Origin: an uncultured Xylophilus sp.
GTDB lineage: Bacteria > Pseudomonadota > Gammaproteobacteria > Burkholderiales > Burkholderiaceae_C
NCBI GenBank assembly: GCA_913776965.1
Contig: CAJYQL010000033.1
Coordinates: forward strand, 1-33,497
Direction of reading: 5' to 3'
Length of the DNA stretch: 33,497 bases
The number at the start of each line of letters is the position of its first letter. Positions within the stretch are counted from its first letter, which is position 1. A model generated the notes under the pieces. It ran no database searches and was not told the DNA's origin. It was given only the letters and a program-made list of their open reading frames with translations. Shown here piece by piece: positions 136 to 15,924 of the stretch. A program made the translations under genes and the position numbers.

Positions 136-1140
136 GTGGGCGAATTCGACCTCATCAACCGCTATTTCCACCGCCCCGCGCACGCCGCACCCGGCGTGCC
201 GCTCGGCATCGGCGACGACTGCGCGCTGCTGCAGCCCGCGCCCGGCCTGCAGCTGGCGGTGTCGTCCGACCTGCTGATCGAGGGCCGGCATTTCCTGTCC
301 ACCGTCGATCCGGCGCGGCTCGGCCACAAGGCGCTGGCGGTCAACCTGAGCGACCTGGCGGCCTGCGGCGCGCGGCCGCTCGCCTTCACGCTGGCGCTGG
401 CGCTGCCGGCGGTGGACGAGCCGTGGCTCGCCGGCTTCGCGTCGGGCCTGTTCGCGCTGGCCGACGCCCACGGCTGCACGCTGGCGGGCGGCGACACGAC
501 GCGCGGCCCGCTCGCGATCTGCATCACCGTCTTCGGCGAAGTGCCCCCCGGCCAAGCGCTGCTGCGCAGCGGCGCCCGGCCGGGCGACGACCTGTGGGTC
601 AGCGGCACCCTCGGCGACGCGCGGCTGGCGCTCGAGGTGTTCCGCGGCACGCTGTCCGTTCCGGCGCCGGTGTTCGACGCCGCGCGGCTGCGCATGGAAA
701 TGCCGAACCCGCGGGTGGCGCTGGGGCAGGCGCTGCGCGGCATCGCCACCAGTGCGGTCGACGTGAGCGACGGGCTGTTGGGCGACCTGGGGCATGTGCG
801 CCGGGCGTCAGGGGTGGGGATGACGGTGAAGGCCGAAGACGCTATCAGATTAATAGCTGCATGCGTAGGTGGGACGGGCGCAGAGGGCACTTTTCCGTCA
901 GAAATGCGTGAGTTGCCGGCAACGCGGCGGTTGGAGTTCGTATTAGCCGGCGGCGACGACTACGAGCTGGCGTTCACCGCGCCGCCGGAGCGCCGTTCGG
1001 CGGTCGAGGCCGCCGGACATGCGGCCGGCACCGCGGTGACGCGCATCGGGCGGATCGACTCGGAGCCGGGCGTGCGGGTGGTCGGCGCGGACGGCACGCC
1101 GGTGCCGGGCCGGTTCGCGTCGTTCGACCATTTCGGATGA
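136..1140 (+). CDS. thiL: thiamine-monophosphate kinase ThiL
   Basis: ThiL phosphorylates thiamine monophosphate to the active cofactor thiamine pyrophosphate in the cytoplasm, the last step of thiamine biosynthesis. The 334-residue protein has the PurM-like AIR synthase architecture. The N-terminus MGEFDLINRYF is typical. The nucleotide/Mg motifs GIGDDCALL (near residue 24) and LAGGDTTRGP (near 115) follow, then VDVSDGLLGDLGHV and AGGDDYELAF. The GTG start at 136 is chosen because translation begins exactly at the conserved N-terminus, with an AGGA eight bases upstream. The usual Burkholderiales neighbours pgpA and cinA are present but lie 13.7 kb downstream. The stretch between ASG and GGDDYE is 45 residues, against about 31 in E. 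coli ThiL as I recall it. The extra residues are encoded by an interspersed repeat (see 841-897). A decayed second copy of the 3' third lies at 11127-11543. Confidence 0.96.
   Translation: MGEFDLINRYFHRPAHAAPGVPLGIGDDCALLQPAPGLQLAVSSDLLIEGRHFLSTVDPARLGHKALAVNLSDLAACGARPLAFTLALALPAVDEPWLAGFASGLFALADAHGCTLAGGDTTRGPLAICITVFGEVPPGQALLRSGARPGDDLWVSGTLGDARLALEVFRGTLSVPAPVFDAARLRMEMPNPRVALGQALRGIATSAVDVSDGLLGDLGHVRRASGVGMTVKAEDAIRLIAACVGGTGAEGTFPSEMRELPATRRLEFVLAGGDDYELAFTAPPERRSAVEAAGHAAGTAVTRIGRIDSEPGVRVVGADGTPVPGRFASFDHFG
841..897. repeat. interspersed repeat captured in frame within thiL
   Basis: GCTAT-cagatta-ATAGC (841-857) is an inverted repeat with a 7-base loop. It is followed by TGCATGCGTAGG and a GGGCGCAG arm. 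The same arrangement recurs in non-coding DNA at 18555-18595 and 25569-25614, in the thiL remnant at 11280, and in degenerate form at 15420. Here it is read through without a stop and encodes roughly IRLIAACVGGTGAEGTF. The family resembles a short intergenic repeat that I recall as widespread in Comamonadaceae; that link is from memory and was not searched. Confidence 0.8.
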
Positions 1141-1183
1141 GTGGTCTGGCCCGATCACCCAGTGCGCTCGGAAGGTGGTCACC

Positions 1184-1205
1184 AGGTCCTGACAGGGCAG
1201 GACCT
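1184..1205. repeat. inverted repeat downstream of thiL
   Basis: AGGTCCTG (1184-1191) and CAGGACCT (1198-1205) form a perfect 8-bp stem around a 6-base loop, 43 bases after the thiL stop. No T-run follows, so a Rho-independent terminator is not well supported. The partly similar strings GGTCACCAGGTCCTGACAG and GGTCACCTGACAG also repeat here. This 120-base spacer is the left junction of the low-GC signalling block and may be debris from the rearrangement. Confidence 0.45.
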
Positions 1206-1264
1206 CGGTCACCTGACAGTACCGAACAGTGGCCGGAAAGTGAGCAAATCGATATCAATGATTG

Positions 1265-1293
1265 TTGACATCGTATTTTTTCAAAAATATCAT
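1265..1293 (+). promoter_or_regulatory. sigma70-type promoter of the MCP-GGDEF operon
   Basis: A perfect -35 hexamer TTGACA (1265-1270) and a -10 hexamer TATCAT (1288-1293, five of six matches) are separated by exactly 17 bases in an AT-rich spacer. Transcription would start near 1300, just upstream of a Shine-Dalgarno AGGAG at 1308-1312. The promoter lies inside the longest possible reading frame of the next gene, which argues for a downstream start codon. Confidence 0.75.
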
Positions 1294-1321
1294 TTGCATC
1301 ACTTCAACAGGAGTGAGTAAA

Positions 1322-2965
1322 TTGATAACCCACTTGTTCCGCCATTTGTCGGTCCGCACCAAACTCAACATTGCGTTCGGCACCCTGATCGCCCTGATGG
1401 TGGCCTTGGCCGCTTTTGCCTTGCTGGGCTTGCAGCAAGCCCACGCTACGTTCAGCAGCTACGTCCACGGGCTCGCTGCGCGGGCCACCGTCGCCGGACA
1501 TATACGCGATGCTGTCGACCGACGGGCTATCGCGGCGCGCAACCTCGTTTTCTTGTCGAACCCCGAAGACGTCGCCACTGAACGCAAGAAAGCACTGGAG
1601 GCATCGACTGACGTGGCGCAACAGATCGCGCGCCTGAGAAGCATGCTGGCAGAAGCACCCGACGCGACGAAGCGGGCCCACGCCCTTTTCGCCGATATCG
1701 AAAAGATTGAACAGGGTTATGCGCCAGTCGCGGCGGAGATAGTCGCCTTGGCGGCCGCCGGACGGCAAGCCGAGGCCCAGCAACATCTTCAGGAACGTTG
1801 CAGACCGCTCCTGGAAGCTTTGGTCGCTGCGACCGGCGAGTACGCTCGCTTCACAGAGGCGCGGGCTCAGCAACTTACCGACGAGGCCACCCAATCCCTT
1901 GCGCATCGGCGCGACACCGTGATCGGTCTTTGCGCATTGGCCCTTGCCGTGGCGGTGGCCGCTGCCTCCTGGATCACGCGCAATATCAGCCGGGGCCTCA
2001 CCAGCGCGGTGGACGTCGCGAACGCCATTGCGACCGGCGATCTTGCGCAGCCCATCGATATTCGGTCGGCCGATGAAATCGGTCGCCTGCTGGAGGCGCT
2101 TGGTCGCATGCAGGACTATCTGAACAGCACCGTGTTGACCGTGCGCTCGAACGCAGAGTCTGTCGCCACCGCAAGCGCCCAGATTGCGCAAGGCAACCAC
2201 GATTTGAGCCATCGCACCGAAGAACAGGCTTCTGCCTTGCAGCAAACGGCGGCGTCGATGGAGCAACTCAGCCACGCGGTGCGGCAGAACGCTGACAGCG
2301 CGCAAGAAGCGAACGCATTGGCGACGCAGACCAGCAATATTGCCAGCCGGTGCGGCATAGCCGTCGGCGACGTGGTGTCGAGCATGCAGCAGATTCAAGG
2401 CAGTGCGCACCGCATCAGCGACATCGTCAGCGTGATCGACAGTATCGCTTTTCAGACCAACATCCTGGCACTCAACGCCGCTGTGGAAGCGGCTCGCGCC
2501 GGCGAGCAAGGGCGGGGGTTCTCGGTGGTTGCCGCAGAGGTTCGCGTCCTTGCGAAGCGAAGTGCGGATGCCGCACGAGAAATCAAAACCCTCATCACCA
2601 GCAGCATGTCCGAGATCCAGCGCGGTGCCGCACTCTCGGATGGTGCCGGCGCCACGATGCAGGAGGTGGTTGCGGCGGTCGGCCGCGTGAGCACGCTGAT
2701 GGGAGAGATCAACGCCGCCTGCCAGGAGCAAAGTGCCGGCGTGGGCCAGATCGGCGCTGCTGTCAACCTGATGGACGGCGCGACCCAACGCAATGCTGCG
2801 TTGGTAGAGGAAAGTGCCGCAGCGGCCAGTAGTCTCCAGCACCAGGCCGAGCAGCTGCTCTCCGCAGTGGCGATCTTCACCTGCGAAAAGCCCAAGATGG
2901 TGCGGATGGCCAGTCTTGGGCGCGGTCCGGCCTACCAGAGCGGGCCACAGCTCGCCCTGACATGA
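1322..2965 (+). CDS. methyl-accepting chemotaxis protein
   Basis: This is a membrane chemoreceptor that would sense periplasmic ligands and control a CheA kinase. The TTG start at 1322 is preferred: AGGAG sits nine bases upstream, and the frame's first possible codon (1262) precedes the predicted transcription start. GTG at 1313 is an alternative. The 547-residue product has TM1 (about 12-35) and a helical periplasmic sensor domain (about 36-198, four-helix-bundle type). TM2 (about 200-219), a HAMP domain (about 220-272) and a signalling coiled coil follow. The hairpin tip near residue 375 contains [20 protein letters not shown] and [12 protein letters not shown]. No C-terminal NWETF-type pentapeptide is present, so no CheR/CheB tether is evident. 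Its stop overlaps the next start (ATGA), giving translational coupling to the GGDEF protein. No cheA or cheW lies in the window, so it must use a core encoded elsewhere or act on its partner directly. Confidence 0.92.
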
Positions 2966-4284
2966 ACGATGTCGCTCCCCACTTCGACGTACGGGCACCA
3001 AGTGCCTCCGATGACGCGCCAGCATCGCATGCCATCGCCACGACCCGATCCCACTTCGAGGCGATCATTGAGTCATCGGACGACGCGATCATCAGTAAAA
3101 CGGTCGAAGGTATCGTGACCAGCTGGAATCCCGCCGCCACACGAATGTTCGGCTACGCCGCCGAAGAGATGATCGGGCAATCCCTGCTGCAGATTTTTCC
3201 GTTGGACAGGGTTGCAGAAGAACAATCCATTCTGCAAAAGATCCTGGTGGGAACGAAGGTCCACCATTTCGAGACCGTCCGACGGCGCAAGGATGGATCA
3301 ACCATTCACGTGTCGGCGACCGTTTCCCCGATCAGAGACGCATCAGGCCGCATCGTCGGTGCGTCCTCCATCACCCGCGACATCACCGAGCGCCACGAGA
3401 GCGAATATCGATTGCGGATGGCGGCCAGCGTCTTCACACACGCATCGGAAGCAATCCTCATCACCGACGGCGCAGGGGTTGTGATGGAGGTCAACGATGC
3501 GTTCGAGGCGATCACCGGCCATGCGCGAATCGACGTCGTGGGCTGCTCTGCGCTGCAGCTGTTGGGCTCCGATGCGGCGAACGGCGATTACGCCGCGATC
3601 GTCGACCTGCTGCGTACGCAGGACCACGGCCGCGGCGAAATCCAGGGACGCCGCAAATGCGGCGGTCATTACGTAGCGCTGGTGACCGTGAACCGGGTGT
3701 CGTCGCCGAGCCATGGAACACAACATGTCGTGTTGATGACCGACATCACGGCCCTCCACAGTCAACAGAAGCTCTTGGAGCGACTTGCGCACGTCGACCC
3801 GCTGACGGGCCTGCCCAACAGACGTGTGCTCCTGGACCGTTTGCAGCAGGTCGTACGTCAGGCGGGCCGCCGCATGGGATGGTCTGCCGTGGTGTACCTC
3901 GATCTCGACGGCTTCAAAGCGGTGAACGACCGCCATGGCCATGCCGGCGGAGACGCCCTTCTTCTCACCCTTGCGCGACGGATGCAGGCTGTTGTGCGTG
4001 AAGGCGACACGCTTGCCCGATTGGGCGGTGACGAATTTGTTTTGCTGTTCACCGACCTCGATTCTCAGGATGTTCCGTCGGGCATTTTGGATCGACTGCT
4101 ACAGGCGTGCGGTGCCCCGGTCGAACTGAACGGGGGCTACGCACAGGTTTCAGCCAGCGTTGGCGTCGTCTTTTGCAACCCGGCCGATAGCGTGGACGCG
4201 GAAGCTCTGCTCAAGCGTGCCGATCAGGCGATGTACGAAGCCAAACAGGCCGGCCGGAACCGGATGAATGTCTGTGTGACCTGA
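2962..4284 (+). CDS. PAS-PAS-GGDEF diguanylate cyclase
   Basis: This 440-residue soluble protein is predicted to make cyclic di-GMP from two GTP. PAS1 spans about residues 30-145 ([22 protein letters not shown] through [10 protein letters not shown], in the usual PAS-PAC layout). PAS2 spans about 150-265 and contains [17 protein letters not shown]. The GGDEF domain (about 270-440) begins [16 protein letters not shown]. The catalytic loop [13 protein letters not shown] is intact (GGDEF at 355-359). An RxxD inhibitory site (R346-D349) sits five residues before it, so product feedback is expected. There are no membrane segments and no EAL domain. The ATG overlaps the chemoreceptor stop by four bases, so the two proteins are probably made together and may act as a sensor-output pair. 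Haem or flavin binding by the PAS domains cannot be judged from sequence. Confidence 0.93.
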
Positions 4285-4337
4285 ACGCTATTGCAGACCG
4301 CCGCGATCCGCATCCGCCACGCTAATGGCACTCGGCC

Positions 4338-5048
4338 TTACACGGCCTCGGCCAACAGGATCGGCCGCAACATATGCCACCAACGAAGCGCCTCCTCCAC
4401 GCGGCCCGAAGCAGCGCTTCGGTCGAGCAGGCGTGCCGTGGCGGCATGCTGTTCGTACCCAAGCAAAGTCAGCACTGTTTTGAGGCTATGGGCGAGCCGC
4501 CGAAGCTCAGCCATGTCCTTCTGCTCGCTGGCTTCGTCGCCAAGGCGAACGTCCTCCAGAAACTGGTGGCGACAACTGCGTTCGAATTCCGCGTACAACT
4601 CCGCTTTGCCACCGAAGAATGAAGCGGTGGCGTCGCCGGAGCGTGCCGTCTCGGCCTGACGAGAGACTTCGCTTTTGAGCGCCCGATCGTTGACGCCCTC
4701 TGCGACGCACGTACGCAACTGTGCCAGCGCAACCGGCTTCTCCAGTATTCGCCAAACCCCTGCTTTCTCCAGGCGCCCCCGCACATCCGGCGTAACCCCC
4801 GCACTGAATACCGCGACGCGGCATCGCTGCGACAGCGCGAGCCATTCGACCAATGGCAAAGCGGATCCATCGGCCAACGAAAGGTCGGTCACTGCCAGGG
4901 AAAAGACAGCTCCGCTCGCCAACGCCGACAGCACGGCCGCCACGGAGTCGCAATGCACCAACTCGATGTCAGCGTCATCCAGCGCCATGGTGACAAAACG
5001 GCGAACCGACGCATCGTCCTCCAGCAGCAGCACACGCTTCAACGACAT
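4338..5048 (-). CDS. response regulator with C-terminal Hpt domain (REC-Hpt)
   Basis: This 236-residue phosphorelay intermediate has a receiver followed by a histidine phosphotransfer domain. The receiver (about 3-115) has acidic residues E10, D11 and D12, phospho-acceptor D55 (AVTDLSL), switch residue S82 and K104 (LEKP). The Hpt region (about 145-235) has H187 in LAHSLKTVLTLLG, matching the Hpt signature HxLK. The start at 5048 is chosen because MSLKRVLLLEDD is where the receiver begins, one base after the stop of the upstream gene (TGA-c-ATG); an upstream ATG at 5111 would overlap that gene. The gene converges on the GGDEF gene with 53 bases between them. With no DNA-binding domain, it most likely passes phosphoryl groups between a kinase and another receiver, plausibly HTH-REC. 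Confidence 0.88.
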   Translation of the reverse strand: MSLKRVLLLEDDASVRRFVTMALDDADIELVHCDSVAAVLSALASGAVFSLAVTDLSLADGSALPLVEWLALSQRCRVAVFSAGVTPDVRGRLEKAGVWRILEKPVALAQLRTCVAEGVNDRALKSEVSRQAETARSGDATASFFGGKAELYAEFERSCRHQFLEDVRLGDEASEQKDMAELRRLAHSLKTVLTLLGYEQHAATARLLDRSAASGRVEEALRWWHMLRPILLAEAV

Positions 5049-5049
5049 G

Positions 5050-5727
5050 TCAGTTCGCGGGCGTCCGTCCACGTTTGGAAAAAGCTTCTGCCAAAAGAAC
5101 CGGCAACTCATGTGCCAACCGCGACTTGTGAACGATCGGAATACCGTCCAGCGCGAATTGATACGGGCTTCGCTCTTCTTCTTCCAATGACGTGACGACG
5201 ATCAAATCACTTCCGCTGAACTGCGGGCTGGTCCGCAGCCCTGCAATCAACGTGGCCCCATCGATACCTGGCAGCAGCAGATCAACCAGCAATACGTCGG
5301 GCTGGAGGCTTCCATACATGGCGAGGCCCGAGATGCCGTCGGATGCCACGTGCAGTTCCACCCCGGGCAGCGTATGTTTGACGACAAGAGACACGAGATT
5401 CTGAAAATGAGCGGAATCTTCGATCAGCAACACACGGCCGGTTGACGTCCCGTGTGCGGGGCTTTTGGGTACTGCAGCAGGGGCAGCAACGTGCTCGCTC
5501 TCTGGGGTAAGCGTGGACACAAGCTCCGGCTTTCGACCATGGCCTTTCTGCCATTCCATGACGGAAGCCCGGGAAATTCGCCGGTGTCCACCCGGGGTTC
5601 GCCACGCCTTCAATTCGCCCCGGTCCACCATGAGTTGCACCGACCGTACCGCTAGCCCCAGCGCACGCGCCACCTCCAGCGTGCTGAGAGTTTCGTCGCC
5701 TTCGCTCAGAAATTGCATTTCGATCAT
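5050..5727 (-). CDS. HTH (excisionase/MerR-like)-receiver fusion regulator
   Basis: This 225-residue protein has an inverted domain order: DNA-binding first, receiver last. Residues about 13-60 are a helix-turn-helix of the excisionase/MerR type: TLSTLEVARALGLAVRSVQ, then the wing RTPGGHRRI (43-51). A Pro/Ala-rich linker (about 66-96) leads to a receiver (about 97-222) with E103 and D104, phospho-acceptor D149 (LLVDLLLPGIDG) and a lysine in VHKSRL. The start at 5727 is used; the reading frame runs much further upstream, but that part is antisense to the REC and HD-GYP genes. ATG at 5718 is an alternative. It is translationally linked to REC-Hpt (one-base gap) and divergent from the REC gene at 5842. 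It probably acts as the transcriptional output of the local phosphorelay and may bind the shared intergenic region; both points are inference. Confidence 0.87.
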   Translation of the reverse strand: MIEMQFLSEGDETLSTLEVARALGLAVRSVQLMVDRGELKAWRTPGGHRRISRASVMEWQKGHGRKPELVSTLTPESEHVAAPAAVPKSPAHGTSTGRVLLIEDSAHFQNLVSLVVKHTLPGVELHVASDGISGLAMYGSLQPDVLLVDLLLPGIDGATLIAGLRTSPQFSGSDLIVVTSLEEEERSPYQFALDGIPIVHKSRLAHELPVLLAEAFSKRGRTPAN

Positions 5728-5789
5728 TTTTTCATTGTAGGGTTTCGGGCAAGCGCCTGCTGTGCGTGACGCGACACCCTCCAAATTAG

Positions 5790-5818
5790 TTGCAAACGCT
5801 CGAATTGATACATATGAT
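5790..5818 (+). promoter_or_regulatory. sigma70-type promoter of the REC / HD-GYP operon
   Basis: TTGCAA (5790-5795) and TATGAT (5813-5818, five of six matches) are separated by 17 bases, with transcription expected near 5825 and a leader of under 20 bases before ATG 5842. The 114-base region between the divergent HTH-REC and REC genes must hold promoters for both directions. On the other strand only an isolated TACAAT close to the HTH-REC start is seen. Confidence 0.65.
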
Positions 5819-5841
5819 AAAGCCTTTGTCACGACGCAAAC

Positions 5842-6216
5842 ATGGCTAAAAAAATACTTCTCGTGGAAGACCAGCCGGACATTCGCCGATTGATCCGCAT
5901 GACGCTGGAGTTCGAGAACTACGACATCACCGAAGCTGCTACGGCAGCCGAGGGGGCGCAGCTGTTCACCGACCTGCAGCCTGATTTGCTGCTGCTTGAC
6001 GTCATGACGCCTGGCGGGATGGACGGACTGGAGTTGTGCAGAAAAGTCCGCAGTCACCACGACGACCTCTACCGGCCGGCCATCGTCATGCTGACAGCTC
6101 GGGGGCAACAGCAGGATATCGATGCGGGCATTGCCGTCGGCGCCGATGCATATCTCGTCAAGCCTTTCAGCCCTTTGCAGTTGCTCGATACGGTGAGCGG
6201 CATGCTCGCGACGTGA
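5842..6216 (+). CDS. stand-alone CheY-like response regulator
   Basis: This 124-residue single-domain receiver has all the usual residues: E9 and D10 (LVEDQPDIRR), phospho-acceptor D53 (LLLLDVMTPGG), a threonine in MLTARG and a lysine in YLVKPFSP. It has no output domain, so it must signal by protein contact. It is the first gene of a probable operon with the HD-GYP gene 54 bases downstream, and the two together resemble a split REC-HD-GYP regulator. I infer that the phosphorylated receiver controls the phosphodiesterase or relays phosphate to REC-Hpt. The ATG is used without a strong Shine-Dalgarno; the upstream sequence is short because the promoter sits at 5790-5818. Confidence 0.92.
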   Translation: MAKKILLVEDQPDIRRLIRMTLEFENYDITEAATAAEGAQLFTDLQPDLLLLDVMTPGGMDGLELCRKVRSHHDDLYRPAIVMLTARGQQQDIDAGIAVGADAYLVKPFSPLQLLDTVSGMLAT

Positions 6217-6270
6217 CGACAGTGAGTCCCAGACCTGTGCATCGTTGCAATTGAAAGGAGCTTCACCGAC

Positions 6271-6999
6271 ATGAGCCACTATGCTCCCGGCGCCATGCAT
6301 CAAATGGAACGCATGGTCCAGGATTTGAAGCAGCTCTATCACGAGCGCAACGCGGCATTGGAAGAGGTATCGCGTGCACACCATGAGGCGTTGTTGAGAC
6401 TCAGCCTGGCCGCCGAGTATCGGGACGACGATACCGGCGTGCATATCGTGCGCATCGGATTTCTTGCAGAAGCCGTAGCCTTGTGTCTTGGGCAATCTGC
6501 CGAATTCGCTAAAAACTTGCGTCTTGCCGCGCCGATGCACGACGTGGGGAAAATCGCAACTCCTGATGCTGTACTGAAGAAGCCCGGACCTCTAGACGCG
6601 TCGGAACGCGCGGTGATGAATACACACCCGGCGAACGGAGCTGCCATCCTAGGCCGTTCGCGTATCCCACTTTTTCAAATGGCTGCGGAGATTGCTCTCA
6701 CACATCACGAGCGCTGGGATGGTCGAGGGTATCCCAGCGGCCTGATGGGCACTGACATTCCGCTATCAGGCCGCATCGTATCCGTCGTCGACTTCTTCGA
6801 CGCCCTCACGATGGACCGCGTCTACCGTCCGGCATATCCCGTAGACACAGCAATCGCCATGTTGCACGACGAACGTGCCAAGGCTTTCGATCCTTCAGTG
6901 GTTGATGCGTTCATGGACCATTCTCAGATGTTGGTGGATTTGCACCGCCACATCACGGAAAACGATGCAACGTTCGAACAGCTCATCGAGGGGTTGTGA
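6271..6999 (+). CDS. HD-GYP domain cyclic di-GMP phosphodiesterase
   Basis: This 242-residue soluble protein is predicted to hydrolyse cyclic di-GMP. An N-terminal helical segment (about 10-45, charged and coiled-coil-like) leads into the HD-GYP core. The metal-binding HD pair is H90-D91 (MHDVGKIATPDAVLKKPGPL). Further ligands lie in NTHP (about 117-120) and in HHERWDGRGYPSGL, which contains the full GYP signature (153-155). SVVDFFDALTMDRVYRPAY is the expected C-terminal motif. The ATG has an AGGAG a little over ten bases upstream. It pairs with the lone receiver upstream, and its activity opposes the GGDEF protein in the same block. As all diagnostic residues are present it should be catalytically competent, although HD-GYP proteins can also act on other cyclic dinucleotides. 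Confidence 0.93.
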   Translation: MSHYAPGAMHQMERMVQDLKQLYHERNAALEEVSRAHHEALLRLSLAAEYRDDDTGVHIVRIGFLAEAVALCLGQSAEFAKNLRLAAPMHDVGKIATPDAVLKKPGPLDASERAVMNTHPANGAAILGRSRIPLFQMAAEIALTHHERWDGRGYPSGLMGTDIPLSGRIVSVVDFFDALTMDRVYRPAYPVDTAIAMLHDERAKAFDPSVVDAFMDHSQMLVDLHRHITENDATFEQLIEGL

Positions 7000-7090
7000 C
7001 GTCGCACGAACGCCATGACTTACGTCCCCTGCGCCTTTTCTATCCCCTCGGAAGAAGAGCGCATGTTCCGTCTTGTTTTTTGCATATGAC

Positions 7091-9208
7091 ATGCGCTTAG
7101 AGTCGATCCGCTGCAAGCTTGGCCCGAAGGTCGGTATTCGTGGTCCATCTGCAGCCGCTGCCGTTGCCGTGCTGGCCTGCTTGCTCACGATTGGGGCGTC
7201 TGCCCTGCTGGTGTGGGCAGAAATTCGACGCACAGAGCATGGTGCCAGGGAGCAGTTGCGCATGCTGGTGCGCATGATCGAGGACGATGTCGTTCGCACA
7301 GCCGATGCTGCTCATGCCGCCCTGTCCACCGTGGTTGCGGCCATCGAGCACCATGTGCCGACGGACGATCCTGCGCTGCTCGGGCCCCTGCTGGCCCAAA
7401 CCCTGGTGGGCCTGCAAAACGTCCGGGCAATCTCGATCGTCGATCTTTCGGGTCGAATTCTTGCCAGTTCCGCGGCTGACGACGTCGACAAGATCATCTC
7501 CCTGGACGCGCTTGGCGGGCCTTTGTCCGGGAGCGGTTCGATGTTGGGTCCGGTCGCACGTGGTTTGACGCTCTCGGATGCTGGCCGAGGCCCGGAGGCG
7601 AAGGCAGACTCCCGCTTCCTTCCCCTGGTGATGCGACAGACCTCTTCTACCGGCCACGATCATTACGTGGTCGTGCAAATCGATCCGACGGGACTCGCCA
7701 GCTATCAGCGCAAGCTTCTCCAAGACGAGCCGCGCATCCAGTCCACCATTCTGCAGAAAGACGGAGCGCTGGTCGCGTCCTCCGGGAAGTTTGCGGACGA
7801 TGTGCAAGCGGGGCCGCCGAACGCCGTCACCGCACGGGCACTGGACGGTGCTCACCGTGGGACGTTCATTCAAGAGGGACAAGAGCGGCGTCTTGTGGCG
7901 TATCGGTCTCTTTCGCGCTACCCGCTCGTGATCGTTGTGCAGCAACCGTACAGCGCCATCGTGGACGATGCACTCGCGAGCCTGCATTGGCTGCTATGGT
8001 CAATGCCTGCCGTGCTGGCAGTGATCGTGGGATCGACGGTACTGGCGTCCCGCACCATTCGGCAACGCGAGCGCACGCGCGTTCTGCTGCGCAGTGCCGA
8101 AGGGCGATTGCAAGACCAGTTGCGGCTGACGCAGCTTCTGCAGGAAATCGCGCCGGTTCCCCTCTGCATGACCGATACGTCGGGACGGTTCCTCATGGTC
8201 AACCGCGCCTGGGAGGAGTTCATGCGTTTGCGTCGTGCAGAGGTGCTAGGGCGGCGGAATGCCGACTTTCTCCCACCGGCCGAGGCCTTCGTGTATGACG
8301 TCCATGATGCACGGCTGCTTCGGGAAGGCGGCGAAGTTCATTTCGAAGATTCTTTTAAGCGTGCCGACGGTACGCGCCGCCATGTGCAGGTCCACAAAGT
8401 CGCCGTTACCCGCGAAGACGGATCGATCGTGGGGTTGCTCGCCGCGAAGCTGGATGTCAGCGATTTCCGTCTAGCGCAGGCGACCGCCGAAACGGCATCC
8501 CGCTCGAAATCCGAATTCGTGGCGAACATCAGCCACGAACTCCGGACACCGCTGCAATCCATCCTCGGATTTTCAGAATTGGGTCTTCATCGGGGGGCGG
8601 AGCATCCGAGACTGGCAGCGATGTTCGAGGACATTCGGGCATCAGGCATCCGAATGCTGGAACTCGTCAACAACCTGCTCGACGTCTCCAAGATTGAAAG
8701 TACGGTGGGTACTTTCAACTTCCGTGCAGTGGATGTCCGGATCTGCATCCAGACCGTGGCCCAGGAACTGGAACCTTTGTTCAATCGCAAACGCCAACGC
8801 CTCGACTTGGTCTGCGGCGATCATCCAATCGTGGCACCGATCGATGCCATTCGCATCCAGCAGGTGATCCGCAATGTCCTGGCGAATGCGATCAAGTTTT
8901 CACCCGAAGAAAGCACGATCACGGTGTCCGTTGAGCTGGCTATTGGGTTGCCCGGATTGCACGAAATTCTCATTGCGGTGCGCGATCAGGGTCCCGGCGT
9001 GCCTGAAGGGGAAAACGACGCCATTTTCGAGCCTTTCGTGCAATCGACACGCACCCAACAGATCGGGGGCGGCACGGGTCTGGGGCTGGCCATCTGCCGC
9101 AAGATCGTCGATGCGCATGGGGGGAGCATCCGTGCGCACAACGCACCAGAGCGCGGTGCGGTATTTGAGATCCGATTGCCGTACGACGATGGTGGAGTCC
9201 GCTCGTGA
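7091..9208 (+). CDS. membrane sensor histidine kinase (periplasmic sensor, PAS, HisKA, HATPase)
   Basis: This 705-residue sensor kinase has TM1 (about 20-42) and a large Cache-like periplasmic domain (about 45-295; VRAISIVDLSGRILASSA). TM2 (about 300-322, WLLWSMPAVLAVIVGSTVLA) and a PAS domain (about 345-460; VPLCMTDTSGRFLMVNRAW) follow. The dimerisation domain carries phospho-acceptor H482 in ANISHELRTPLQSIL. In the ATPase domain the N box is NVLANAIKFS, G1 is RDQGPGVPEG and G2 is GGGTGLGLAICRK. There is no attached receiver, so phosphate must go to separate receivers such as those at 5842, 5050 or 4338. ATG 7091 is chosen over TTG 7073, though neither has a good Shine-Dalgarno. A nine-codon frame (7063-7089, counting its stop) ends one base before it and could couple translation. 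The stop overlaps the next kinase (GTGA). Confidence 0.92.
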   Translation: MRLESIRCKLGPKVGIRGPSAAAAVAVLACLLTIGASALLVWAEIRRTEHGAREQLRMLVRMIEDDVVRTADAAHAALSTVVAAIEHHVPTDDPALLGPLLAQTLVGLQNVRAISIVDLSGRILASSAADDVDKIISLDALGGPLSGSGSMLGPVARGLTLSDAGRGPEAKADSRFLPLVMRQTSSTGHDHYVVVQIDPTGLASYQRKLLQDEPRIQSTILQKDGALVASSGKFADDVQAGPPNAVTARALDGAHRGTFIQEGQERRLVAYRSLSRYPLVIVVQQPYSAIVDDALASLHWLLWSMPAVLAVIVGSTVLASRTIRQRERTRVLLRSAEGRLQDQLRLTQLLQEIAPVPLCMTDTSGRFLMVNRAWEEFMRLRRAEVLGRRNADFLPPAEAFVYDVHDARLLREGGEVHFEDSFKRADGTRRHVQVHKVAVTREDGSIVGLLAAKLDVSDFRLAQATAETASRSKSEFVANISHELRTPLQSILGFSELGLHRGAEHPRLAAMFEDIRASGIRMLELVNNLLDVSKIESTVGTFNFRAVDVRICIQTVAQELEPLFNRKRQRLDLVCGDHPIVAPIDAIRIQQVIRNVLANAIKFSPEESTITVSVELAIGLPGLHEILIAVRDQGPGVPEGENDAIFEPFVQSTRTQQIGGGTGLGLAICRKIVDAHGGSIRAHNAPERGAVFEIRLPYDDGGVRS

Positions 9209-11010
9209 GTGCCACTTTTCCCCGTCATCAAGAAGTTCCAGGAAAAGCATGGTTCAGGCGCATGGGGTTGGCTGCCCGAGCCCCGACGCGACTGCAATGG
9301 TCGACGATCGCGCTGCTCGCGATGGTCGTATGCGCGATATGGATCACGGTATTTGCACTACTCGACTCCTATCGCAAGGGTGCGATCGATGCACAGGTCC
9401 GGCAGAACTCCAATATCGCGCGCGCGCTGCAAGAGCAGACACTTCGTGTCATCGCGGGAGTTGATCAGGCGGTCATCCGATTGGCGCATATGGCAGCAGC
9501 CGGGCCAGTGGCACCCTCAGAGTTTCAGAAACAGGTTGACGCTACCGGCCTGTCGTCCGATATCTTGACCCAGTTGTCGCTCATCGATGGTCAGGGCCGT
9601 TTTGTGGGAAGCAACATCGATCCGTCCGGTCATGCGACTGGGCCGATCAACCTGTCGGACCGGGAGCACGTGAGCGTGCACCTTGCTCCGCCCGGCGCAC
9701 TGCGGGAACACCTGGCGGCAGACGGTTTGTTTATCGGGAAGCCGGTTCTGGGCAAGGTTTCCAAGAAGTGGACGATTCAGCTGTCACGGCCCGTTCTCGA
9801 CGCCGCCGGCAAGTCTGCCGGCGTGGTGGTCGCATCGGTGGATCCCCGGTATTTCGAGGAGGTCTATCAACACGTGCGCCTCGGCACCGGAGGCGGCGTC
9901 AGCCTGGTGGGCGCGGATGGTGTGATACGTGCGCGAGTACTGGGCGGCGTCAGCAGTGGCATGGGTGCTGCCGTGGGCAGCGGAGGCCGTGTGTACCGCA
10001 ACGCCCTTGCACAGGAGGGCGTCATGATCGGCCAGGGGGCTATTGCAAACGCCGGACGCATCGCAGCCTACCACCAAGTCAGCGGTTATCCGCTCTACGT
10101 GTTCACCATCGCCTCTTTGCAGGAAGCTTTGTCCGAATGGTCAAAGGCACGTCGTCTGATCGTGTCTCTGGCCGCTCTGCTCAGCTTGGCCATAGTGGGT
10201 GCGGGGGGGCTGTTCATCTCGGGTGTACGCCATCTGGAGCGCCAGCACCGTGCGTTGCAACGCAGTGAATCGGACGCCCAGGTCGCCAATCGCGCCAAGA
10301 CCGAGTTTCTGGCCGCGATCTCCCATGAACTGCGTACGCCGCTCACGAGCATCCGCGGTTTTGCGGAACTAATGGAGCGAAGAGGCGAAGACAAGCGCTT
10401 CCGCGAACAGGCTTCGCTGATACGGAAATCGTCGGAGCACCTGAACGCCCTGCTGTCGGAAATTCTCGATCTGTCAGCTGTGGAATCGGGCTCGATGCAA
10501 TTCGCACAGGACCAGATCGTTGTCCGCGATCTGGTCGAAGCCACGGTCGAAATTTTCCAAATCACGGCGGCAGCGAAATCGTTGGATTTGCAGATCCGTT
10601 TCGCGCCCGACTTACCACCAACGCTGGAAGTCGACGGCTTCCGGCTACGCCAGATTCTCAACAACCTGCTGTCGAATGCCATCAAATTCACGGCGAACGG
10701 ACGCGTCGATGTGGACGTCCGTATCGATGCAGGATTCTGGACTTTTGCGGTTACCGATATGGGGCCGGGAATCGAACCCGAACTGCACGAGACCGTATTT
10801 GAGAAATTTCGGCAGGGTCATGCACGGGTCAGCTACGAGCATGGAGGAACCGGCCTTGGCCTTGCGCTTTCGCGATCGCTCGCCCGCAGTATGGGTGGCG
10901 ATATCCGCCTGCGATCGGCCAAAGGAGCGGGTGCTTGCTTCACCTTGCTTCTGCCAGCGACATCCCGTGCGCAGGTCGATACAGCCATCTTGGAAGCGCA
11001 CACACACTAA
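9205..11010 (+). CDS. membrane sensor histidine kinase (Cache-like sensor, HisKA, HATPase)
   Basis: This second sensor kinase, 601 residues, starts at GTG 9205 and overlaps the previous stop by four bases (GTGA), so the two are translationally coupled. TM1 is about 32-53 (WSTIALLAMVVCAIWITVFALL in context). A Cache-type periplasmic domain spans about 55-310 and contains LIDGQGRFVGSN and IGKPVLGKVSKKW, typical of double-Cache sensors. TM2 is about 315-337. No PAS domain intervenes before the dimerisation domain, whose phospho-acceptor is H374 in AAISHELRTPLTSIRGF. ATPase motifs are NNLLSNAIKF, TDMGPGIEPE and GGTGLGLALSRS. As with its partner, no receiver is attached. Two adjacent kinases with different sensory input suggest two stimuli feeding one set of receivers, possibly through heterodimers; that is inference. 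It is the last intact gene of the low-GC block. Confidence 0.92.
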   Translation: MSATFPRHQEVPGKAWFRRMGLAARAPTRLQWSTIALLAMVVCAIWITVFALLDSYRKGAIDAQVRQNSNIARALQEQTLRVIAGVDQAVIRLAHMAAAGPVAPSEFQKQVDATGLSSDILTQLSLIDGQGRFVGSNIDPSGHATGPINLSDREHVSVHLAPPGALREHLAADGLFIGKPVLGKVSKKWTIQLSRPVLDAAGKSAGVVVASVDPRYFEEVYQHVRLGTGGGVSLVGADGVIRARVLGGVSSGMGAAVGSGGRVYRNALAQEGVMIGQGAIANAGRIAAYHQVSGYPLYVFTIASLQEALSEWSKARRLIVSLAALLSLAIVGAGGLFISGVRHLERQHRALQRSESDAQVANRAKTEFLAAISHELRTPLTSIRGFAELMERRGEDKRFREQASLIRKSSEHLNALLSEILDLSAVESGSMQFAQDQIVVRDLVEATVEIFQITAAAKSLDLQIRFAPDLPPTLEVDGFRLRQILNNLLSNAIKFTANGRVDVDVRIDAGFWTFAVTDMGPGIEPELHETVFEKFRQGHARVSYEHGGTGLGLALSRSLARSMGGDIRLRSAKGAGACFTLLLPATSRAQVDTAILEAHTH

Positions 11011-11126
11011 TGTCTGCGCTTCCCGGACCTTCTGCTCCCTGATCTCCGCTTGCCGCCGACCGCGTTGACGGTCGCACAGATGGGAGGACCCAGGAAGTCC
11101 GATGCCGGCGCATCATCTGTCACCGT

Positions 11127-11543
11127 GGTCGACGCCGCGCGACGGCGCATGGGATGCCGAACGCGCACGTGGCGCTGGGGGCAGGCGCTACACGGCATCG
11201 CCACCAATGCGATCGACGTGAGCGACGGGCTGGTCGGCGAACTGGGGAATGTACGTTGGGGTAACGGAAGGTCGATGCCGCTATTGGATTGTTAGCTGCA
11301 TGCGGAGGTGGGACCGACGCAGAGGGCACTTTTGCCATCGGACCCGCCAGAAGTATTGGCACCGCAGCGGCTGGCGTTTACGCGCCGCAGGCGCACCGTG
11401 CGGCGGTCGAGGCCGCCGGACGTGCGGCCGGCACCGCCGTGACGCGCATCGGGCGGATCGACGCGGAGCCGGGCGTGCGGGTGGTCGGCGCGGATGGCGC
11501 GCAGGTGCCGGGCCGGTTCGCGTCGTTCGACCACTTCGGATAA
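11127..11543 (+). pseudogene. decayed duplicate of the 3' third of thiL
   Basis: From GTCGACGCCGCGCG at 11127 to the TAA at 11541-11543 the DNA aligns with thiL from about 674 to 1140. The last 140 bases differ at only about nine positions (hand alignment), and both end in the protein string GRFASFDHFG. The upstream part has lost about 16 bases net, which breaks the frame. A further net 36-base loss removes the GGDDYE motif. The copy of the interspersed repeat is retained (GCTAT at 11280, with one stem mismatch). No start codon or N-terminal two thirds exist, so no kinase can be made. With thiL it forms a direct repeat flanking the signalling block. Bases 11011-11126 and 11544-11675 hold no recognisable gene. 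Confidence 0.9.
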
Positions 11544-11675
11544 GCCGACCGATCCTGCGGCGGCGGACGCACGCGGCGCGGGATCGCATGCGAAACGCAT
11601 CGGCGCATCCGGCGCGCGTCCGCAAACCATCGCGCCGCGCCGGCACTTTCCGCCACGACGCGGAGCGACGCCGGT

Positions 11676-13587
11676 TCACGCCGGGTTCGGCGCTCCCTTC
11701 AGGCGGTGGGCCACGTTGAATCCCGTCGCGCTGCCGCTGGTGACGTGGTAGCAGGTGCCGGCGCACTGCGCATGGTGCGACTGCTCCACCCGGCCCTTGA
11801 TCTTGTCGATGGCCTGGTCCGCTGCGCCGCCGGGGGCCGAATAGGCGGTGATCATCTTCTCGACCTGGCCATACAGCTCGTTGTAGAACAGACCCAGGAC
11901 GCTGTTCGCGGCCAGCAGCTTCAGCATGTGCTTCTGCAGCCGGAACAGGTGCTTGGTGGCCGTGACCATGTCGGCATGGGTGGTCTCCTGGCCGCTGCGG
12001 TCCCGGGTGCTGGCGTGGGCGCATGGTGCTGCCGTCGGCATAGAAGGCCTGCAGGGCCGCGATGCTCTCCTGGCACTTGCGGATGCTGTCGGCCATCGCC
12101 TCGATCCGTCCGGCCTTCAGCATCGAGCGCAGCAGCCAGATGCGCTGCGCCGGATCGGTCACCGTGTTGCCGTAGATCGCCTTGATGTTGCTGCGGTCGT
12201 TGAGCATTTCCAGCGCATAGCCGACCAGCGCCGACACCACGATGCCCGCGGCCAGGCCGGCACCGCCGCTGGCGGCGATGTTGACGGTCGACCCGATGGC
12301 GCTGGACCCGAGCGCGGACGATACCGACGCACTGGTCGCGGCGGTCTTGCCTGCGCCCAGCACCACGCCCTGCAGCTGGCTGATGCTGAAGTCCTTCAGG
12401 CTCGTCCCGCCGACATGGCCGCTGCGGGTCGCCGCGGCTTGGTCCCCGAGGTCCACCGGGCCGGCCGCCGCCAGGGCGTCCTGGACCTTGCCGCTGACAT
12501 CGTTGTGGTCGCCGTCGGAGGCGCTCTTGGCTTCCTTCAGGATGGAGGCGAAGGCTTTCTCCATCTCGGCCTTGCCGGACCGGGTCATCATGCGCTGCCG
12601 CAGGGCCATGAGCGGCATCAGGCCCGCGACGTGGGCCCCGGCCGCGCCGGGACGGGCGCCGGTCATGGTCTCGAACCAGGTCTTCCAGGCCAGCGCGTTG
12701 TAGTCGCGGAGGTGGTTCGCCACCGTCACGCTCTTGCCGTAGGCCTTCTTCTGCTCGGGGTTCAGCAGATTCGCATCGGGCTTGGCCAGATGGATGACGA
12801 GGTTGGCGGTATGGATCTCGCCGAGCAGGCTGCACATCTGGCTGGCGGCCGCGATCTTGTTGTCCACCAGGAACACGAAGTTCGACAGGTGGTCCATCTG
12901 CCGGCCCTTGTCGAGCTTTTCTTCCAGCCGGTGCTTGAACCGGAACAGGCCGTAGGCCAGCGTCGCCGCATCGCCGCAGTTGGTCACCGGCGCGGCGACC
13001 ATCCGGTCCAGCAGCTTGCCGGCTTCGATCGCCTTATCCTGGTAGCGGGCGAGCGCTTCCAGGTCGGCGGCGTTCAGCATGTACTCCAGGTCGCTCACCA
13101 TGGCAGAGGTGTCGTAGCGCTCGTCGGCGCTCTGGCCGGAGGTGCGTTCGTGCGCCTGGCCTCGCTGGTAGGCCCCGTAGGCATTGACGCCGACGGCGAT
13201 GCCGATGCCGAGCGCGAAGACGCCCACGGCGATACCGCCGGTGATCGCCGCGGACGCCGCCACCAGCACCACCCCGCCGCCGACCGCCACGCCCACCCCG
13301 ATGCCGGTGCCCACGCTCGCCGCCGTGCCGGCCGCCGTGGTGGCCAGTCCGCGCTTGTTGTGCGAGAAGCTGTTGATCTGGTTCTGGAAGAAATGCCGGG
13401 TGCCGCCGGTCGAGACCGCGCCCGCGAACTCCTTGTTGCCCGCCTTTTCGACCGGCAGCGCGATCGACTTGCGCGCGAAATAGCCCGCATCGTGCAGCAG
13501 CATGGCGGTGCCGCGGGCGGTTCGGCACAGTTCCTCCTCCTTCTGCTTCATGCGGGTGGCGTACTGGGCGAGAAGCTTTCTGGACAT
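11676..13587 (-). pseudogene. frameshifted orphan protein with Gly/Ala-rich hydrophobic stretches
   Basis: I do not recognise this family. ATG 13587 has an upstream AGGAAA and opens a frame of about 522 residues. Near 12017-12019 (GGG on the + strand) sense continues in another frame as STRDRSGQETTHADMVTATK and on to a TGA at 11676. Removing one base would give a protein of about 637 residues. The first frame instead reads on into low-quality sequence and the antisense of the thiL remnant. Visible features: a charged N-terminus without a signal peptide; a long Gly/Ala/Val hydrophobic segment at about 82-140 able to form a membrane hairpin of glycine-zipper type; a mostly helical middle; a second Gly/Ala-rich stretch at about 405-465; a helical C-terminus. 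The layout recalls pore-forming or translocated proteins, but no secretion gene, immunity gene or family motif is seen. A sequencing error is possible. Confidence 0.6.
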
Positions 13588-13820: not shown

Positions 13821-14492
13821 TCAGACGCGCGTATTAAGTGGGGCTGTCACCTGTGCCATCGTCTCGGCCACCGCCCGGTCCCGCGGATCCGCGCTCCCCG
13901 CCAGCCCGTCGACCACCCCCTGCTGGTCCGCCGCCGTCCGGTTCTGGCTCATCTTCCACTTCCCTTCGACCCGCTCCACCACGATCTCCAGGCCGACGAT
14001 CTGGGCGATCTGCGCCTCCAGATAGTCGGCCGGCGCGTCGCCCATCTTCCAGGGCGCGGGGCGCGCGGCCTCGAAACGGCGGGTCAGGCGGGCGAGCAGG
14101 CCGCGCAGCCAGCGCGGGTCGTCGTGCACCGCGATGCGGCCGTGGGCATGCACCGCGACGTAGTTCCAGGTCGGGACAACCCGGTGGTGGGTCTGCTTGG
14201 ATGGGTACAGGCTGGGGGAGACATACGCGTCCGGCCCGCGGAACACGACCAGCGTGGGCAGCGGCTGCGCCGGATTGGCGGCTGCCGCGTCCTGCCAGAC
14301 CGGGTTGGCGCGGGCGACGTGGCAGCGCAGCACGCCCAGGCCGCCCGCGGCCCGGTCCCATTCGAACGGCAGGTGCTGGGCATCCAGCCCGCCGTCCGCC
14401 GTGTGGGTGACCAGCATGCCGAGCGGCGCACGGGTCGCGGCGGCCTGCAGCAGGTCGGGGTCGTTTTCGGCGAAATGGGCGGGCAGGTACAT
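13821..14492 (-). CDS. FMN-binding split-barrel protein, PaiB-like
   Basis: This 223-residue protein matches the PaiB family, small flavin-binding split-barrel proteins described in Bacillus as negative transcriptional regulators of sporulation and protease genes. Their role in proteobacteria is not established. Characteristic strings in order are MYLPAHFAENDPDLL, PLGMLVTH, LDAQHLPFEWD, CHVARANPVWQ, FRGPDAYVSPSLYPSK, VVPTWNYVAVHAHGRI, APWKMGD, IVGLEIVVERVEGKWKMSQNR and the terminal DQQGVVDGL region. The length is normal and the frame intact. The start is ATG 14492. It stands alone on the minus strand between the orphan gene and the tandem-repeat region, with no operon partner. High GC and codon choice resemble the chromosomal flank rather than the low-GC signalling block. 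DNA-binding activity should not be assumed. Confidence 0.9.
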   Translation of the reverse strand: MYLPAHFAENDPDLLQAAATRAPLGMLVTHTADGGLDAQHLPFEWDRAAGGLGVLRCHVARANPVWQDAAAANPAQPLPTLVVFRGPDAYVSPSLYPSKQTHHRVVPTWNYVAVHAHGRIAVHDDPRWLRGLLARLTRRFEAARPAPWKMGDAPADYLEAQIAQIVGLEIVVERVEGKWKMSQNRTAADQQGVVDGLAGSADPRDRAVAETMAQVTAPLNTRV

Positions 14493-14560
14493 GGCGAACG
14501 GTGCGGGTGAGGAGGTGCGTGCGCAGACGTAGCAGGGCGTGCTTCAGCCGTCAGCGTAGC

Positions 14561-14592
14561 GGAGTGGCGGAGTGGCGGAGTGGCGGAGTGGC
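14561..14592. repeat. GGAGTGGC x4 octanucleotide tandem repeat
   Basis: Four perfect 8-bp units lie 69 bases upstream of the paiB-like start codon on its non-coding side. They are followed by a pyrimidine-rich stretch (CCCCCTACCCCTACCCCCTAC) and then by the array at 14639. An 8-bp unit can slip, and its position would place copy-number change in the promoter region of the leftward paiB-like gene. Confidence 0.9.
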
Positions 14593-14638
14593 GCTAGCCG
14601 CCCCCTACCCCTACCCCCTACATCTACACCTGCCGCGC

Positions 14639-14738
14639 CCTGCTGCCTGCTGCCTGCTGCCTGCTGCCTGCTGCCTGTTGCCTGTTGCCTGTTGCCTGTT
14701 GCCTGTTGCCTGCTGCCCTGCCCTGCCCTGCCCTGCCC
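14639..14738. repeat. CCTGYTG x11 heptamer array followed by CCCTG x4
   Basis: Eleven 7-bp units run from 14639 to 14715: five CCTGCTG, five CCTGTTG and one CCTGCTG. Four CCCTG units (14716-14735) follow, ending in CCCG. The blocks of identical variants suggest repeated slippage or unequal exchange. The 392 bases between the paiB-like gene and pgpA contain this array, the octamer array and about 145 bases (14739-14884) in which I see no further feature. The short frame across it (LLPAACC, LLPVACC) is low-complexity and not a gene. Confidence 0.92.
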
Positions 14739-14884
14739 GTAACCATGCTCACCGCTACCTTGCCGCCCCGGCCACCGGCGAGGCACAGCCGGCTTTTCCG
14801 CGATGATGACGACCCTTGCGGCGGATGCGGCCTGCGCGTCCGCCAGCCGCAGTCCACGCCCCGCTTCGTCGCCTTCCGCCTCCC

Positions 14885-15412
14885 ATGCAGCCCTCCCCCG
14901 CCGCACCCCCCGCGCCCGTGCGCCCTACCGCCCGCTTCATGCTCGCGCATCCGGCGCATTTCATCGCGCTCGGCTTCGGCTCGGGTCTCGCGCCGGTGGG
15001 GCCGGGTACCGCCGGCACGCTCTGGGGCTGGCTCGCGTGGCTGGCGCTGGTGCCCTGGTTCACCACCGCGCAGCTGGGCGGGCTGATCGCCGGCGCCACG
15101 CTCGTCGGCTGGTGGGCCTGCACCGTGACCGCGCGGCGGCTCGGCAGCCTGGACCCGTCCAACATCGTCTGGGACGAGATCGTCGCCTTCTGGCTGGTGC
15201 TGTGGCTGGTGCTGCCGGCGGGGTTGCTCGGGCAGGCGGTCGCGTTCGCGCTGTTCCGCTTCTTCGACGCGGTCAAACCGGGGCCGGTGGGCTGGGCCGA
15301 CCGGGCGTTCCACGGCTTCGGGCCGCGCGGCGGCTTCGGCATCCTGGCCGACGATTTCGCGGCGGCCTTCTGCACGTTGCTGGTGATCGCCGGCTGGAAG
15401 GCGCTGGCATGA
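14885..15412 (+). CDS. pgpA: phosphatidylglycerophosphatase A PgpA
   Basis: PgpA dephosphorylates phosphatidylglycerophosphate to phosphatidylglycerol at the inner membrane. The 175-residue product carries the family signatures: [18 protein letters not shown] near the N-terminus, then [17 protein letters not shown] with the conserved acidic residues, [18 protein letters not shown], and [12 protein letters not shown] at the C-terminus. Three to four hydrophobic segments are visible. ATG 14885 is chosen because it gives a normal N-terminus ([18 protein letters not shown]) a short distance before the conserved [15 protein letters not shown]; an upstream in-frame ATG at 14816 adds only low-complexity residues. 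Its stop overlaps the cinA start (ATGA). In related genomes, as I recall, this gene directly follows thiL; here 13.7 kb intervenes. Confidence 0.94.
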
Positions 15413-15924
15413 GCGATGCGCTATCGAATCAGGAGCACACTGCGCAGGCGGGATGGGCGCGGGTGGCCGATCTGCTGCTTAAAAGAAGCTGGATGCTCGC
15501 CACCGCCGAAAGCTGCACCGGCGGCCTGATCGCCGCCGCCTGCACCGACCTGGCCGGCTCCAGCGCCTGGTTCGAGCGCGGCTTCGTGACCTATTCCAAC
15601 GCCGCCAAGGCCGAGCTGCTCGGCGTCGATGCGGCGTTGATCGCAGCGCACGGCGCGGTGAGCGAGCCGGTGGCGCGGGCGATGGCGGCGGGTGCGGTCG
15701 CGCGCTCGGCGGCGCAGGTGGCGGTCGCGGTCACCGGCATCGCCGGGCCGGGCGGCGGCAGCGCCGACAAGCCGGTCGGCACCGTGTGGTTCGGCTGGTC
15801 GGTCGGCGGTGTGGTCGAGGCCGAGCGCTGCCGCTTCGACGGCGACCGCGCCGCAGTGCGGCAGGCCACCGTCGCGCATGCGCAGCAGGGCCTGCTGGCG
15901 CGGCTGGCGCCAGGCGGCTTCTGA
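15409..15924 (+). CDS. pncC: CinA C-terminal domain protein, NMN amidohydrolase PncC
   Basis: PncC deamidates nicotinamide mononucleotide to nicotinate mononucleotide, recycling NMN released by DNA ligase. The 171-residue protein is the short single-domain form. Diagnostic strings are [72 protein letters not shown] and the C-terminal [12 protein letters not shown] region. ATG 15409 overlaps the pgpA stop by four bases. The N-terminus before [11 protein letters not shown] is somewhat long. Its DNA (15420-15465) matches the interspersed repeat in degenerate form, suggesting that the first 20 or so residues derive from it. The product would feed the same NaMN pool as PncA and PncB, encoded 3-6 kb downstream. 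DNA uptake roles suggested by the name cinA apply to the longer two-domain proteins. Confidence 0.93.
15420..15465. repeat. degenerate interspersed repeat at the 5' end of pncC
   Basis: GCTAT-cgaatc-AGGAGC-acact-GCGCAGG-cgggat-GGGCGCGG aligns block by block with the copy inside thiL (GCTAT-cagatta-ATAGC-tgcat-GCGTAGG-tgggac-GGGCGCAG). The second stem arm is altered and one loop base is missing. It is read in frame as part of the PncC N-terminus. The similarity is clear in the GCGCAGG to GGGCGC half and weaker in the first half. Confidence 0.5.

Follow-up and report, generated by a model that had tools for sequence, protein, structure and literature searches.

The window analysed here is the whole of contig CAJYQL010000033.1 (C33; 33,497 nucleotides) from the assembly GCA_913776965.1 of an uncultured Xylophilus sp., a draft genome of 4.05 Mb in 136 contigs. 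It carries a block of eight signalling genes enclosed between the intact thiamine-monophosphate kinase gene thiL and a decayed second copy of the thiL 3' end. We consider it probable that the block is a horizontally acquired cassette for cyclic di-GMP (c-di-GMP) signalling and phosphorelay, which entered by one-sided homologous recombination anchored in thiL. The composition of the cassette is strongly foreign, and the interval between thiL and pgpA, in which it lies, is a family-wide hotspot of gene exchange.

The intact thiL gene lies at 136-1140 on the forward strand, with an open frame of 334 amino acids and a TIGR01379 score of 295.7 bits against a cut-off of 184.15. An initial annotation, made from the sequence alone, had reported that the 3' third of this gene is repeated at about 11127-11543, and the alignment bears this out: the last third of thiL (copy 1, 668-1141) recurs as a direct repeat at 11123-11544 (copy 2, forward strand). 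The repeat is about 470 bases long, its coordinates are approximate, and 356 of 420 aligned bases (85%) are identical, with five indels: two single-base gaps in copy 1 and three gaps in copy 2, which are 1, 16, and 37 bases long. The local alignment of thiL with copy 2 scored 440, against a maximum of 49 among 200 segments of the same length taken from position 15000 of the window onward. Copy 2 is broken, with an in-frame stop, and tblastn returned it as two overlapping pieces, one of which contains TAG. The visible homology of the two copies begins at about 668 and does not extend past the stop codon, beyond which the flanks are unlike each other; the longest exact match between the copies is 31 bases. 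Elsewhere in the same genome, the sole match to copy 2 is a 39-base stretch on contig C45. A single thiL-tail match at E 1e-5 was found in each of 90 loci of relatives, which are the best thiL matches, form a Variovorax-rich set, and in several cases end shortly past thiL. The target gene is intact at one end of the block and a second thiL end lies at the other, the arrangement of a restored gene tail.

Two other features of thiL were considered and discarded. The low conservation of its C-terminal half is not a sign of repeated replacement, as the relatives drop alike among themselves (all pairs of ten relatives average 0.180, and the window gives 0.135-0.207), and an AT-richer stretch within the tail is not foreign DNA but a variable loop, similar in the same-genus genomes G005 and G006. 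In the one-contig genome G009, thiL (locus L120, G009:C1:2759037-2760004) reads as two overlapping frames, split near residue 176 by a frameshift or an error, at about the same point as the start of the repeat in the window. Short tandem repeats of a GCACC unit lie upstream of thiL in the window, at 58-92.

The GC and codon-use profile, which had been proposed as a check on the origin of the block, marks it as foreign. Its GC content is 60.5%, whereas the stretch that begins with pgpA and runs to the end of the contig has 72.1%. As a background we used 184 overlapping 10-kb segments of the same genome, sampled over 360 kb in 20 stretches, of which 18 were long enough: the value of the block, 0.605, is under all of them, the lowest being 0.613, from one stretch. 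GC content at third codon positions (GC3) is 0.63-0.74 in the eight cassette genes and 0.89-0.95 in thiL and the examined genes to the right of copy 2. Because GC3 is host-like in the genes to its right, the foreign composition stops at copy 2. Among the hand counts of 60-mers in the initial annotation, those of 55% (2401-2460) and 83% (15661-15720) were reproduced, and positions 6361-6420 have 58% rather than 60%.

The claim that only signalling genes lie between the two copies also held: eight open genes occupy 1262-11010, one of them (4338-5048) assigned on weaker evidence, and the sequence between the copies (1141 to 11123), 9983 bases in all, includes only 547 non-coding bases. The genes were scanned, in part, with Pfam, PHROGs, and NCBIfam. 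On the forward strand, a methyl-accepting chemotaxis protein (MCP; 1262-2965, with a gene finder start possibly at 1313 and GC3 of 0.727) has the Pfam domains 4HB, HAMP, and MCPsignal, and is followed by a PAS-PAS-GGDEF diguanylate cyclase (2962-4284; Pfam), with a GGDEF motif and an RxxD motif five residues upstream. Two genes are on the reverse strand. RR-Hpt (4338-5048) combines a receiver, whose NCBIfam matches are below the curated cut-offs, with an Hpt-like C-terminal part bearing an AHSLK motif. HTH-RR (5050-5709, approximate start), which served as the cassette marker, combines a MerR/excisionase-type helix-turn-helix (HTH) with a receiver; HTH_17 and Response_reg match in the longer frame 5050-6540, and TIGR01764 matches above its cut-off. 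The forward strand then carries a single-domain response regulator (RR; 5842-6216; Response_reg), an HD-GYP phosphodiesterase (6271-6999; HD_5 and HD, with HDVGK and HHERWDGRGYP motifs), and two histidine kinases recognized by Pfam, both with a SHELRTP motif: the PAS kinase HK1 (7073-9208, start uncertain) and HK2 (9205-11010), whose dCache-like sensor part is below the Pfam cut-off. The HTH part of HTH-RR also matches PHROG 66 (excisionase and transcriptional regulator) at E 6e-8; we did not adopt the excisionase reading because the HTH is fused to a receiver and the protein is part of the cassette elsewhere.

The initial annotation had named the absence of the block between thiL and pgpA in close relatives as a result that would support insertion. 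Among six same-genus comparison genomes (G001-G006), the block is absent from this interval in all five that are readable there; the contig of G005 ends at this point. The gap between the two genes measures 6151 bp in G001, 222 in G002, 82 in G003, 66 in G004, and 9988 in G006, and the distant matches to kinases and GGDEF that G001, G002, and G004 show fall outside it. The gap was measurable in 72 of the 90 loci (4 duplicates removed), in all of which pgpA is the same-strand neighbour of thiL, and it ranges from 52 to 9988 bp: 16 loci are below 300 bp, 11 at 300-1000 bp, 21 at 1-4 kb, and 24 at 4 kb or more. Between pgpA and cinA, none of 74 loci (duplicates kept) has a gap of more than 68 bp. 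Genes called in the thiL-pgpA intervals of 32 relatives gave 137 proteins; pooled with 10 from the window, these grouped into 78 clusters, of which 58 had a single member. The relatives, in short, have the same core flanks and differing cargo. In the window, the conserved right flank of this hotspot, pgpA, lies at 14939-15412 on the forward strand (NF008288, below cut-off).

Judging from sequence matches, the core of the cargo is a cassette that recurs with a patchy distribution, a reading based on the spread of HTH-RR and on five matching loci. At E 1e-30, HTH-RR was found in 101 of 399 genomes of a family sample and in 3 of 399 of an order sample, the own genome being included in both, and it was not found in G001, G002, G003, G005, or G006. 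Five loci (G104, G120, G285, G294, and G247) were chosen for fetching since they matched. In all five, RR-Hpt lies beside HTH-RR, divergent from the RR or the HD-GYP gene, and an RR and a related kinase are near (a weak 24% in G247); the HD-GYP gene is present in four and an MCP lies beyond in two. The matched pieces are 24-66% identical, and the GC content of the loci is 0.664-0.734. The relatives' clusters also differ from the window: HD-GYP was unseen in G247, the RR is set apart in G294, ahead of the kinase, four loci have an extra short gene, judged by eye to be solute-binding, which the window lacks, and no adjacent counterpart of HK2 and the PAS-GGDEF gene was recognized. The fetched stretches around these five cassettes contain no thiL match.

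No donor of the cassette was found in the searches made. HTH-RR is 55-63% identical over 33 fetched loci (up to 68% by another measure), and in its tree of 34 rows the window protein stands on a long branch (1.01), next to which no neighbour has support. The block DNA found no donor among 299 family genomes; the matches listed, at 67-72%, span less than about 1 kb and lie at the MCP end and in the RR/HD-GYP region. HK2 found none among 299 genomes of the phylum, three of which, including the own genome, matched at E 1e-60. The HD-GYP protein was matched in 188 plasmid records, the best (67.1%) at NZ_CP088082.1:688094-688777, on a 709-kb plasmid of Ideonella dechloratans. The non-coding flanks gave only short weak matches against 204 fetched loci, and a literature search showed nothing, among the records listed, that was recognizable as this thiL-pgpA site or cassette.

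The history of the two thiL ends suggests a close source for the tail. In a tree of copy 1, copy 2, and ten relatives, the two copies are sisters with 100/100 support, apart from all ten relatives, with branches of 0.039 for copy 1 and 0.12 for copy 2; a placement on different branches, which the initial annotation had named as support for insertion, was thus not recovered. They differ at 19, 20, and 23 sites at the three codon positions (of 139, 136, and 139), with no third-position bias (chi-square p 0.81), while copy 1 differs from G005 at 31, 21, and 55 (of 132, 129, and 132). Where all ten outgroups agree, 12 columns are changed in copy 2 alone and three in copy 1 alone. Since the tails are sisters and their differences lack a third-position bias, the source of the incoming thiL tail was probably this lineage or one very close to it. 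Much of the divergence between the copies probably dates from after the loss of function of copy 2, the two ends having been close at the time of the event. The resident tail would be copy 2. Its decay contrasts with the state of the cassette: copy 2 shows five gaps over about 470 bases, the eight frames of the cassette are open, and at this rate about 100 indels would be expected in 9.4 kb of unselected sequence of equal age. If the decay of copy 2 began when the block entered, the cassette would have been kept by selection.

Taken together, these observations suggest the following course of events. Incoming DNA with a thiL 3' end, either from this species or from one very closely related to it, already having the cassette behind thiL, or in the form of a circle with that end, would have paired through it with the resident thiL. 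The other end would have been joined by illegitimate recombination or via the same single crossover. The present intact thiL would then consist of the resident 5' part and the incoming tail, and the resident tail, displaced to the far side, would have decayed as a pseudogene, with the cassette staying intact under selection. The donor, the formation of the second junction, the identity of the resident tail, and the selection on the cassette are what we infer. Some results speak against this account. When codon positions are compared with the ten relatives over the conserved blocks alone, the contrast is weak (Fisher p from 0.027 to 0.335, with a single comparison of the ten below 0.05), suggestive rather than firm. 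The divergence is uneven along the copies: 978-1141 and 11381-11544 differ at 11 of 160 sites and the rest at 51 of 254, which one clean event does not explain and which might reflect gene conversion or a naturally variable thiL loop. Moreover, neither a donor genome, with thiL directly followed by the cassette, nor an empty site with thiL, the orphan gene U (described below), and pgpA was found among the relatives compared.

The sister position of the tails also suits a rearrangement within the lineage, in which the cassette already stood behind thiL, the tail and cassette were duplicated in tandem, and the second cassette copy was lost; the divergence of the tails, mostly post-duplication in appearance, would agree with this. 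We hold this course fairly unlikely, as it would need two further events as well as a deletion that ends at the second tail, and would still require the horizontal entry of the cassette. A site-specific integrative element is in our view unlikely. Such an element would have used the thiL 3' end as its attachment site and carried its own tail, as e14 does at icd, and would later have lost its integrase; the intact gene, the displaced tail at the far end, and the homology ending at the stop codon are e14-like. The repeat of about 470 bases is, however, longer than that of e14, and the space between the copies is filled by the eight signalling genes, with the small non-coding share given above. 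No integrase was found for the block in the family scans or with the PF00589 profile; serine recombinases and transposases were not searched as families. In a PF00589 search of 18 genomes, evaluated for the two with complete match lists, the own genome has eight matches, none on C33, and G009 has nine, none in its thiL-pgpA interval. No integrase was seen by eye, without a library scan, among the 137 genes of the relatives' intervals. Inverted repeats were not found at the left end of the block, and the right end has only short ones, which are not usable. The initial annotation had favoured an incoming element that restores the end of its target gene. The foreign composition, the absence of the block in relatives, and the intact upstream and decayed downstream copies agree with it. 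Because the tails are sisters and no integrase was found, homologous recombination, which it gave as the alternative, is a stronger version than the integrating element, without the distantly foreign thiL end. The family-wide hotspot and the recurrence of the cassette had not been noticed there.

Such a far donor, in which the thiL end arrived with foreign DNA from a clearly different species, would accord with the foreign composition of the cassette; it is disfavoured, and very unlikely, given that the tails exclude all ten relatives and differ without third-position bias. Still less credible is an assembly or binning artefact, a foreign stretch joined to thiL. The genome is a draft, and an assembly with a small k-mer could be misled by the 31-base exact match of the copies, but copy 2 is diverged and decayed and so is not a collapsed repeat, and the lineage's own thiL sequence stands at both ends of the block, with only the C45 match to copy 2 besides. 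A more speculative idea, which we consider quite doubtful, is that the thiL ends act as long direct repeats of an integrase-free, RecA-driven module; by recombining with each other they would release a circle with one thiL end, able to re-enter behind any thiL. If true, tail-carrying circles would be one possible feed of the thiL-pgpA hotspot across the family.

The preferred explanation, one-sided recombination in thiL, has counterparts in known systems. According to Oliveira et al. 2017 (PMC5635113), hotspots without recognizable mobile elements are common and show recombination in their flanking core genes. The thiL-pgpA interval is like them in its variable cargo between core genes, in that no integrase was seen among the genes scanned, and in the recombination scar in a core gene; the hotspots described there are within species, whereas this one extends across species of a family. 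Homology-facilitated illegitimate recombination is described as homologous at one end and illegitimate at the other (PMC3240628), and displacement by that route was proposed for immunity arrays of the Vibrio type VI secretion system and orphan Rhs ends (PMC5361080). The likeness to the latter lies in one homologous anchor, one non-homologous join, and an old 3' part downstream of new cargo. Here, the anchor is a housekeeping gene, the remnant a pseudogene, and the cargo a signalling cassette, and the mechanism, proposed there, is inferred. The anatomy of the locus fits either this route or a single crossover of a circle with a thiL end. In prophage e14, the incoming DNA gives the icd 3' end and leaves a 163-bp icd' copy (PMC6379469). 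The thiL case resembles it in that incoming DNA would have supplied the 3' end of a gene and left the old end behind, and differs in the length of the repeat and in the absence of a detected integrase, e14 being a site-specific prophage.

Most likely, then, the block reflects an ordinary recombination-driven acquisition at an exchange hotspot, with an unusually clear scar. The events that feed such a hotspot should rarely leave a readable scar, as double crossovers in core genes would be clean. Here, what looks like the displaced thiL end remains, and it reveals which gene was the anchor, in which direction the replacement likely went, and how old the event is in relative terms. Its decay offers a rough clock, suggesting that selection kept a foreign cassette intact.

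To the right of the block, the broken copy does not, contrary to the initial annotation, face pgpA directly: gene U and a further gene, both host-like (GC3 0.90-0.93), intervene. Gene U (11676-13587, reverse strand) has a frame broken at about 12040, by a frameshift or a sequencing error, and GC3 values of 0.926 and 0.902 for its two frames. It encodes a long glycine/alanine-rich hydrophobic stretch, has no Pfam, PHROG, or NCBIfam match, and has no relative at E 1e-10 among 249 other family genomes. The second gene (13821-14492, reverse strand) is shared with the thiL-pgpA interval of G006, at 66.8% protein identity; its product is putatively PaiB/FMN-binding, and it had no family match. Upstream of pgpA, at about 14555-14745, lie short tandem repeats of GGAGTGGC-like and CTGCCTG-like units. 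At the far end of the contig, the gene at 29414-30706 and the following frame, open to the contig end at 33497 (about 930 amino acids), look by eye like a membrane-fusion protein and a resistance-nodulation-division (RND) pump.

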